Shown in pieces: positions 1 to 49,310 of a stretch of 59,427 bases of DNA. Below the pieces are notes generated by a model. It saw only the letters and a list, made by a program, of their open reading frames with translations, ran no database searches and was not told the DNA's origin. Location: NCBI RefSeq assembly GCF_003170075.1, contig NZ_PMZU01000061.1:2481-61907 (forward strand). Reading direction: 5' to 3'. Each line of letters begins with the position of its first letter. Position 1 is the first letter of the stretch. Made by a program: the position numbers and the translations under genes. Source of the DNA: Methanoregula sp. (GTDB taxonomy: Archaea; Halobacteriota; Methanomicrobia; Methanomicrobiales; Methanospirillaceae).

Positions 1-354
<354 letters not shown>

Positions 355-47844: not shown

Positions 47845-48582
47845 TCACCGTGTCAGCAGTTCGTTTTTTATCCCGTCGTACGGGGCGGGCAGGTCAAGGT
47901 TTTTAAAAAACCGGTCCGTGAACGAAAGACTGGTGGTTACCGCCCATTCAGCACACCCGTGACCGAGACACCGGTCCGGGAAGAACGGGAGGTTTTTGGG
48001 GGCGAATGGGTTCTCGGCAAACCGGTTTTTAAGAAGATGTTCAAATTTTTCCGCATGGGTCTCCGTGTGGGCACCGGGAGTCTGGCCCGCCTTTATGACC
48101 ACCCATTCGCGGCGGTAATGCATCAGGTAATTGCGGATCCCGATCAGGTCCTTTATACCGGAGAAGACCGGGTCGTCCTCATCGAACAGGGATTTGTTAC
48201 CGGTTTCAAGAATCTTCTGGTACTTAACCGGTAACGGGGTGCGGTCAAAATAATTCTCGTTGTTCCATTTCTCCCCGATCGCCTGCAATAGTGTCTCACT
48301 ATCTTTATCGGAAAAGAAATACGCGTTGTCTGCTGCGTCGGACCAGAGCTCGTTGATGGTGGATTCAAGGAATGCAACCGAAGAGAAGAGCGCGTTGAGG
48401 ATGAACGCTTCGTGCCTGAGCCGCTGCTCTGCATAGAGGGTGCCGGTTACGGCATAGTCTTGTTCTATCCGGTATCCCAGCCGGCTGAAGAGGGCGGCGG
48501 ACTGGATGTATTTCACCGAGAAACAGTCCCGGAACCGGATAAGATCCTCATCCTCCTGAAGATCCCGGGCAGGGTCGTCCAT
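47845..48582 (-). CDS. HEPN-like protein, possible RNase
   Basis: This 245-residue helical protein begins MDDPARDLQEDEDLIRFRD. It contains the motif IRNYLMHYRREW (about residues 147-158), which matches the HEPN ribonuclease pattern R-N-x-x-x-H. Aromatic/acidic helices (ALFSSVAFLESTINELW) lie before the motif, as in HEPN folds. The C-terminal domain has Cys/His residues (CLGHGCAEW). No MNT nucleotidyltransferase partner or phage gene is adjacent. Function is inferred from one motif only. Confidence 0.65.
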   Translation of the reverse strand: MDDPARDLQEDEDLIRFRDCFSVKYIQSAALFSRLGYRIEQDYAVTGTLYAEQRLRHEAFILNALFSSVAFLESTINELWSDAADNAYFFSDKDSETLLQAIGEKWNNENYFDRTPLPVKYQKILETGNKSLFDEDDPVFSGIKDLIGIRNYLMHYRREWVVIKAGQTPGAHTETHAEKFEHLLKNRFAENPFAPKNLPFFPDRCLGHGCAEWAVTTSLSFTDRFFKNLDLPAPYDGIKNELLTR

Positions 48583-48710
48583 CGTACCATCCCGTTTTGT
48601 TTCGTAGAGTAAAAAGATGAGGGAACCGTGCGGGAATCCGGCAACCTACACCACTGATGCTGCAGCCGGATCACAGATACCCTTAATATTTGTGGCCGTC
48701 AATAGTAAGA

Positions 48711-48832
48711 CAGCACTTTTAAATTGGTGCTGACAGATGTAAGTCCGACGTGCCTTTTTTGGCACGGCCTCAAAACTTGGCTTTGGGATTACAGAGAGTC
48801 AGTAAGCATACTGCACTTTTCTGGACTTACAT
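48711..48832 (+). ncRNA. Predicted structured RNA or leader before S15
   Basis: A closed fold is visible. P1 ATGTAAGTCC (48737-48746) pairs perfectly with GGACTTACAT (48823-48832). Inside are three hairpins: CGTGCC/GGCACG (48749-48766, loop T6), CTCAAA/TTTGGG (4869-type stem at 48769-48787, one G-T) and CAGTA/TACTG (48800-48813). A separate CAGCAC/GTGCTG inverted repeat (48711-48732) surrounds the TATA-like TTTTAAATT. P1 ends eight bases before the GGAGGT site of S15. It may be an autoregulatory leader or an independent RNA. I do not match it to a known family. Confidence 0.55.
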
Positions 48833-48851
48833 ATTAACCGGAGGTATAACT

Positions 48852-49310
48852 ATGGCACGAATGCACACCAGAAGAAGAGGACAGTCATGCTCTGTGCGGC
48901 CTGCGCGGAATGAGGCGCCTTCATGGTCCAACACGGACAAGGCAGCGATCGAGAAACTTATTGTCGATCTCCGCAAGGAAGGCACATCGAGCAGCATGAT
49001 CGGCCTGATCCTGCGGGACCGCCACGGCGTCCCTGATGTCAAGATGGTCACCGGCAAAAGCATCGGCGACATCTTAGTAGAGAACAAGATCAGTTCCGAG
49101 ATCCCCGAGGATCTCCGCGACCTCATGGTCAAGGCGCTAGGCTTACGCAAGCACCTGGAAGACAACAAGAAGGACCTGCACAACAAGCGGCAGCTCCACC
49201 TTGTCGAGGCCAAGATCCGCCGGCTCGTGAAGTACTACGTAGGCACAAAGAAACTGCCCGCAGGTTTCACCTACAAGCCGGAGACCACCGAGATCCTGTT
49301 GTCCAGATAA
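48852..49310 (+). CDS. rpsO: Small ribosomal subunit protein S15 (uS15)
   Basis: This 152-residue archaeal S15 has an N-terminal extension (MARMHTRRRGQSCSVRPA) and the core LVEAKIRRLVKYYVGTKKLP near the C-terminus that binds the 16S three-way junction. ATG at 48852 follows GGAGGT by six bases; upstream residues in the same frame are non-coding. It starts a conserved archaeal group with GAN, Pcc1 and S3Ae. The folded sequence just upstream may control it. Confidence 0.97.
   Translation: MARMHTRRRGQSCSVRPARNEAPSWSNTDKAAIEKLIVDLRKEGTSSSMIGLILRDRHGVPDVKMVTGKSIGDILVENKISSEIPEDLRDLMVKALGLRKHLEDNKKDLHNKRQLHLVEAKIRRLVKYYVGTKKLPAGFTYKPETTEILLSR

Follow-up and report, generated by a model that had tools for sequence, protein, structure and literature searches.

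To our knowledge, few cis-regulatory RNAs are known from archaea. The systems closest to the element described here are leaders of rpsO, the gene for ribosomal protein S15. In E. coli and mycobacteria, the rpsO leader takes up two exclusive conformations, two hairpins or a pseudoknot, of which S15 recognises one, and the protein represses its own translation (PMC8470358). S15 binds the rpsO leaders of Geobacillus/B. stearothermophilus and Thermus, which are also bacterial, at a three-way junction that resembles its site on 16S rRNA, in Thermus in direct competition with the ribosome. For archaea, the family S15-Methanomicrobia (Rfam RF03137) comes from the computational predictions of Eckert & Weinberg (2020; PMC7247131), whose main text gives rpsO, recJ, and rps3ae as the regulated genes and counts the two archaeal S15 leaders as its strongest candidates for rRNA mimicry. 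A literature search turned up no subsequent work on them.

The S15 leader and its 16S-like junction

The window (the whole stretch of Methanoregula sp. DNA that was analysed, 59,427 nucleotides) carries a member of this family directly upstream of rpsO. Positions 48712-48792 match RF03137 in cmscan at 75.9 bits against a cut-off of 42.2, covering model positions 1-74 of 74, and contain the same P1, P2, P3, and P4 with the same imitation of the 16S junction. The operon is that of RF03137 as well, since rpsO is followed by a RecJ-like gene (NF053576, score under the family cut-off) and the gene for S3ae (NF003142), and then by apgM. The nearest named relatives of the S15 protein are from Methanoregula and Methanoregulaceae MAGs. 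Within the order, 132 of 135 good genomes have a match to RF03137; among 295 sampled genomes of the phylum, none outside the order has one. The first-pass annotation had supposed that an archaeal S15 leader would be new, a claim that the 2020 prediction overtakes. Relative to the RF03137 model, which ends at 48792, and to the main text of that paper (PMC7247131), the new elements are an alternative fold, a helix P0, and a downstream strand Z; a further hairpin, P5, also lies outside the model. Elsewhere in the window, a gene for a 245-aa protein without an NCBIfam match (47845-48582, minus strand) runs divergently from rpsO, and a partial archaeal 16S rRNA gene (1-354, minus strand) is cut by the window edge.

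The features of the locus are as follows, with A denoting the published fold and B the alternative one.

48682-48690, plus strand: TATA-like CTTAATATT, predicted promoter of the S15 operon, an AT-rich box found at a similar position across genera
48711-48732, plus strand: P1 hairpin (48711-48717 with 48726-48732), first stem of RF03137
48730-48746, plus strand: strand X, comprising linker CUGAC (48730-48734), AGAU, and arm GUAAGUCC (48739-48746), whose partner is Y in fold A or Z in fold B
48747-48784, plus strand: core of the three-way junction, with GAC 48747-48749, P3 48750-48754 with 48761-48765, P4 48766-48769 with 48779-48782, and junction UUG, from the RF03137 alignment and the match to 16S
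48785-48802, plus strand: strand Y, comprising GGGAUUAC (48785-48792, P2 with 48739-48746) and GUCAG (48798-48802, P0 with 48730-48734), from covariation
48797-48820, plus strand: P5 hairpin (48800-48804 with 48809-48813, and 48797-48799 with 48815-48817), which excludes P0, and U-tract 48817-48820
48823-48832, plus strand: strand Z, GGACUUACAU, forming P2' with 48737-48746 in fold B, which excludes P2
48840-48845, plus strand: Shine-Dalgarno (SD) sequence GGAGGU, read from the sequence
48852-49310, plus strand: rpsO, ribosomal protein S15 (NF006331, 214.7 bits), start codon at 48852

We collected 148 leaders of the order; the block alignment comprises 59 distinct rows and spans 36 genera. In fold A, the arm pairs with GGGAUUAC to form P2 (GUAA..CC with GG..UUAC). 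In the block alignment, this published helix with its extension has 99.4% standard pairs and six pairs changed on both sides, a result matched by none of 500 shuffles. A further helix of fold A is P0, in which the linker (CUGRC) pairs with GUCAG; 98.6% of its positions are paired and all five pairs are changed on both sides, in registers picked partly by best complementarity. It is rebuilt from unrelated letters in genus g25 (GCACG with CGUGC) and in f2g7 (GACUA with UAGUC), while the preference of cognate over non-cognate arms is weaker for P0 than for the helix of fold B given below (25 of 36 genera, p = 0.008).

Comparison with the 16S rRNA of six relatives places this fold at the S15 site. 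The junction GUCC-GAC-GUG / GGCU..GGGA is common to leader and rRNA, the leader sequence GGCUUUGGGA being the counterpart of 16S GGCUAGGGA. The likeness takes in the A x (C/G)U internal loop, with GG-A-CCG .. CGG-(C/G)U-CC-GAC-AGUG in 16S and GG-A-UUAC .. GUAA-GU-CC-GAC-GUG in the leader, in an alignment made by eye whose letters differ slightly between genera. The order of elements, a purine-rich internal loop and then a second helix, is by eye also that of 16S helix 22. Fold A thus reads as a three-way junction of the h20-h21-h22 type, and free S15 should recognise it.

Transcription is predicted to start near 48710, from the position of the TATA-like box; in most genera, the peak of the AT-rich box lies 28-30 nt upstream of the GCAC of P1. 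In many genera, P1 is also preceded at 6-10 nt by another AT-rich box, which in f4g4, f1g12, and f1g21 itself resembles a good TATA box. The predicted start precedes the fold; a start inside the fold was among the outcomes that the first-pass annotation named as refuting its reading. The same annotation saw the TATA box inside a CAGCAC/GTGCTG repeat and suggested a second control there, a view that we abandon. The repeat forms the RNA hairpin P1, whose loop is AU-rich and whose stem extensions vary among genera yet stay complementary. A DNA operator flanking a TATA box at constant spacing was considered and rejected, because the loop ranges from 3 to about 14 nt, the extensions are compensated, and the candidate promoter lies upstream.

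A downstream strand complementary to the arm

In fold B, the arm GUAAGUCC (48739-48746) pairs with GGACUUAC (48823-48830), a sequence outside the RF03137 model. This is the stem that the first-pass annotation had drawn, and the perfect complementarity of AUGUAAGUCC (48737-48746) with 48823-48832 over 10 bp is confirmed, as is the presence of GGAGGU within eight bases 3' of it, with the S15 start some 20 nt past the stem and NF006331 as the protein. The RNA from 48737 to 48832 folds at -37.7 kcal/mol, whereas 200 dinucleotide shuffles give -21.0 +- 3.3 (z = -5.1, no shuffle as good); for the wider leader, 48706-48870, z against shuffles is -4.1. Of the three hairpins drawn within the stem, the first (48749-48766) survives as P3 and the third (48800-48804 with 48809-48813) as the top of P5; in place of the second (48769-48774 with 48782-48787, drawn as 48769-48787), RF03137 has P4. 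The idea of a structured S15 leader built on a 16S-like three-way junction has comparative support, but the drawn fold is not the one that carries the junction, which needs 48739-48746 paired with 48785-48792 and is excluded by the drawn stem.

Because both folds use the 5' arm 48739-48746, they are mutually exclusive: X pairs with Y or with Z, and both pairings covary. P0 and P5 likewise both use GUC, so that fold A consists of P0 and P2 and fold B of P2' and P5. Across the 59 rows, P2' is 96.2% paired, compared with at most 43% in slid controls, with one bulged base removed in some genera for these counts. The test of cognate against non-cognate arms keeps such bulges, and in it X and Z of the same leader outpair non-cognate combinations in 30 of 36 genera (Wilcoxon p = 2e-5). 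The most telling pair is 48743-48826, which is G-C in 40 rows, A-U in 10, G-U in 9, and never mismatched, whereas 48743 is unpaired in RF03137. Its G-U and A-U forms both occur within genus g27 and within g23, and it is on differences inside these two genera that the independence of the changes rests. In g23, some leaders have GCAAGUCC or GCAAAUCC as the arm, and both partners have changed along with it (GGGAUUGC and GGAUUUUGC). P5 is 87.8% paired with five pairs changed on both sides, counts that lean towards structure because its register was picked by best complementarity.

By these comparisons, fold B is conserved and covarying across the order. Covariation across relatives had been set as a test of the leader, and its presence in both folds speaks in the leader's favour. 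Among the 148 leaders, Z is recognisable in all genera except g19, and is weakest in g14, g25, and f3g29. The g19 leader (L137), the sole one of the set in which Z is not recognisable, has an altered arm (GUACAUCC) and a different downstream layout, with the S15 start much further away. The five leaders of g25 (L144-L148) have the lowest family scores, 37-44 bits with three under the Rfam cut-off, and differ in the letters of P1 and the linker; their B helix is lengthened by CCG paired with CGG.

A similar arrangement is found in the S15-Halobacteria leader (RF03143). Its arm differs, GGAAC(N)GCACGRCCGC, and a downstream strand GCGGUC(N)GUGC(N)GUUCC, outside RF03143 and near the S15 start, is complementary to that arm over 15-16 positions. 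Leaders with this candidate competitor are L226 and L237-L266. The duplex of arm and downstream strand scores 39.5 on average, compared with 23.4 for shuffled targets; the strand is too conserved for strong covariation, although two rows have A-U in place of G-C. The layout of X, Y, and Z is thus the same, while arm and candidate competitor are made of other letters. The two leaders are alike in ligand logic, 16S mimicry, and a downstream strand complementary to the arm. They are unlike in the arm, Z, and junction-side stems, and the Halobacteria leaders have no conserved P5 or U-tract and, in those inspected, no recognisable SD.

Possible function of the two folds

We propose, with a probability of roughly 0.6, that the leader is a member of RF03137 with the P2' stem as its alternative fold, and that S15 captures fold A on the nascent transcript, failing which fold B removes the S15 site. 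During transcription, X (48730-48746) would pair first with Y (48785-48802) to give the h20-h21-h22-like junction. When S15 is scarce, Z (48823-48832), transcribed some 30 nt further on, would displace Y from X and P5 would form, so that the S15 site is lost and the mRNA committed to expression. When S15 is in excess, the nascent junction would be held, Z would stay unpaired, and S15 output would drop, most likely at translation initiation by analogy with characterised bacterial S15 leaders. That fold A should be the off state follows the general rule of ribosomal-protein feedback.

The energetics are consistent with such an order of events. Folding under constraint to one state or the other favours B over A by a mean of 7.2 kcal/mol, and B is the more stable in 98% of 144 leaders. 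For growing transcripts of the window, the probability of P2 is 0.9 at ends 48796-48820, and that of B is 0.53 at 48828 and 0.99 from 48832; these are equilibrium values at each length rather than kinetics, for a transcript with the predicted start at 48710. The calculation suggests that fold A comes first and is available for S15 to bind while about 35 nt are transcribed.

How fold A would lower translation is less easily drawn. The distance from Z to the start codon ranges from about 24 to more than 200 nt, so no single simple occlusion geometry fits all leaders. Averaged by genus, the initiation region is 1.4 kcal/mol harder to open in A than in B, but in 42 of 58 cases a shuffled segment between P2 and the SD costs as much or more; the effect is therefore generic, and dedicated burial of the SD in A was rejected. 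A CU-rich tract serving as anti-SD in A fails as a general rule (mean pairing probability 0.08), and pairing between the U-tract and early codons of S15, present in the A fold of the window, fails by eye in genera with other arginine codons. A pseudoknot of the E. coli type over the initiation region was also discarded, since the 16S-like fold here is a nested three-way junction that precedes the SD. In families f2 and f6 (for example L010, L056, L077, L102, L124, and L139) and in one f1 leader (L118), Z and the SD are separated by spacers of about 55-205 nt. Most are chains of hairpins more stable than shuffles, and these may shorten the effective distance from Z to the SD.

The output could instead be transcriptional, P5 and the U-tract acting as a pause or terminator (intrinsic or dependent on aCPSF1/FttA) when S15 holds A, while B lets transcription proceed. 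A run of at least four U before Z follows P5 in 32 of the 36 genera, making termination possible, poly-U after these leaders is already remarked on in the main text of Eckert & Weinberg (PMC7247131), and the spacing from P2 to Z is mostly 23-33 nt while that from Z to the SD is free. However, the U-run is missing in g11, g16, g25, and f3g10, Halobacteria do not have the layout of P5 and U-tract, and characterised S15 leaders act on translation. Moreover, Z is made after the U-tract and so cannot decide termination there. Both the position of Z and the Halobacteria leaders tell against termination at the U-tract as sole output, and we keep a transcriptional output as an unlikely but serious rival.

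It is improbable that the sense of the switch is reversed, with B, whose helix abuts the SD or start region, as the repressed state and A as the expressed one. The B helix does end about 7-25 nt before the AUG in most Methanomicrobiales and in Halobacteria, but it does not pair the SD itself, and since S15 should bind A, this arrangement would mean positive feedback, unlike known ribosomal-protein leaders. We give equally little weight to the view that fold A alone is functional, GGACUUAC being conserved for some other reason and its complementarity to X incidental. The RF03137 model and the main text of the 2020 paper (PMC7247131) need no downstream strand, and the arm positions tied to the 16S mimic would be conserved anyway. 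This view leaves unexplained the absence of mismatches at 48743-48826, a pair whose 5' base is unpaired in A, the two forms of that pair within each of g27 and g23, the cognate preference, and the unrelated X with matching Z in Halobacteria. That the four-helix fold B is itself the S15 site is scarcely credible: it is the most stable fold, but the 16S-like junction GAC/UUG-GG with its A x GU loop arises only in A, and Y, unpaired in B, is nevertheless conserved and covaries with X.

On the proposed capture of nascent fold A, the leader would resemble those of E. coli and mycobacteria in having mutually exclusive conformations, with unrelated sequences and a 16S-like junction instead of a pseudoknot. 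As in Geobacillus/B. stearothermophilus and Thermus, S15 would bind a 16S-like three-way junction; unlike the Thermus type, this junction lies upstream of the SD and would be dismantled by a distal strand. We see about an even chance that one and the same kinetic three-strand switch, made from different sequences, operates in the S15 leaders of Methanomicrobiales and of Halobacteria: the nascent X:Y pairing would be open to S15 until the start-proximal Z displaces it, so that free S15 is sampled once per transcript.

The S15 leaders of archaea have so far had a model of the binding site only, and the Rfam model stops short of the putative switch; the competitor strand is a candidate for the expression platform. 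A few compensatory mutants would be enough for a direct test of the mechanism. If the same competition does arise from different sequences in two archaeal groups, it would offer a clean comparison with the two-state rpsO leaders of bacteria.
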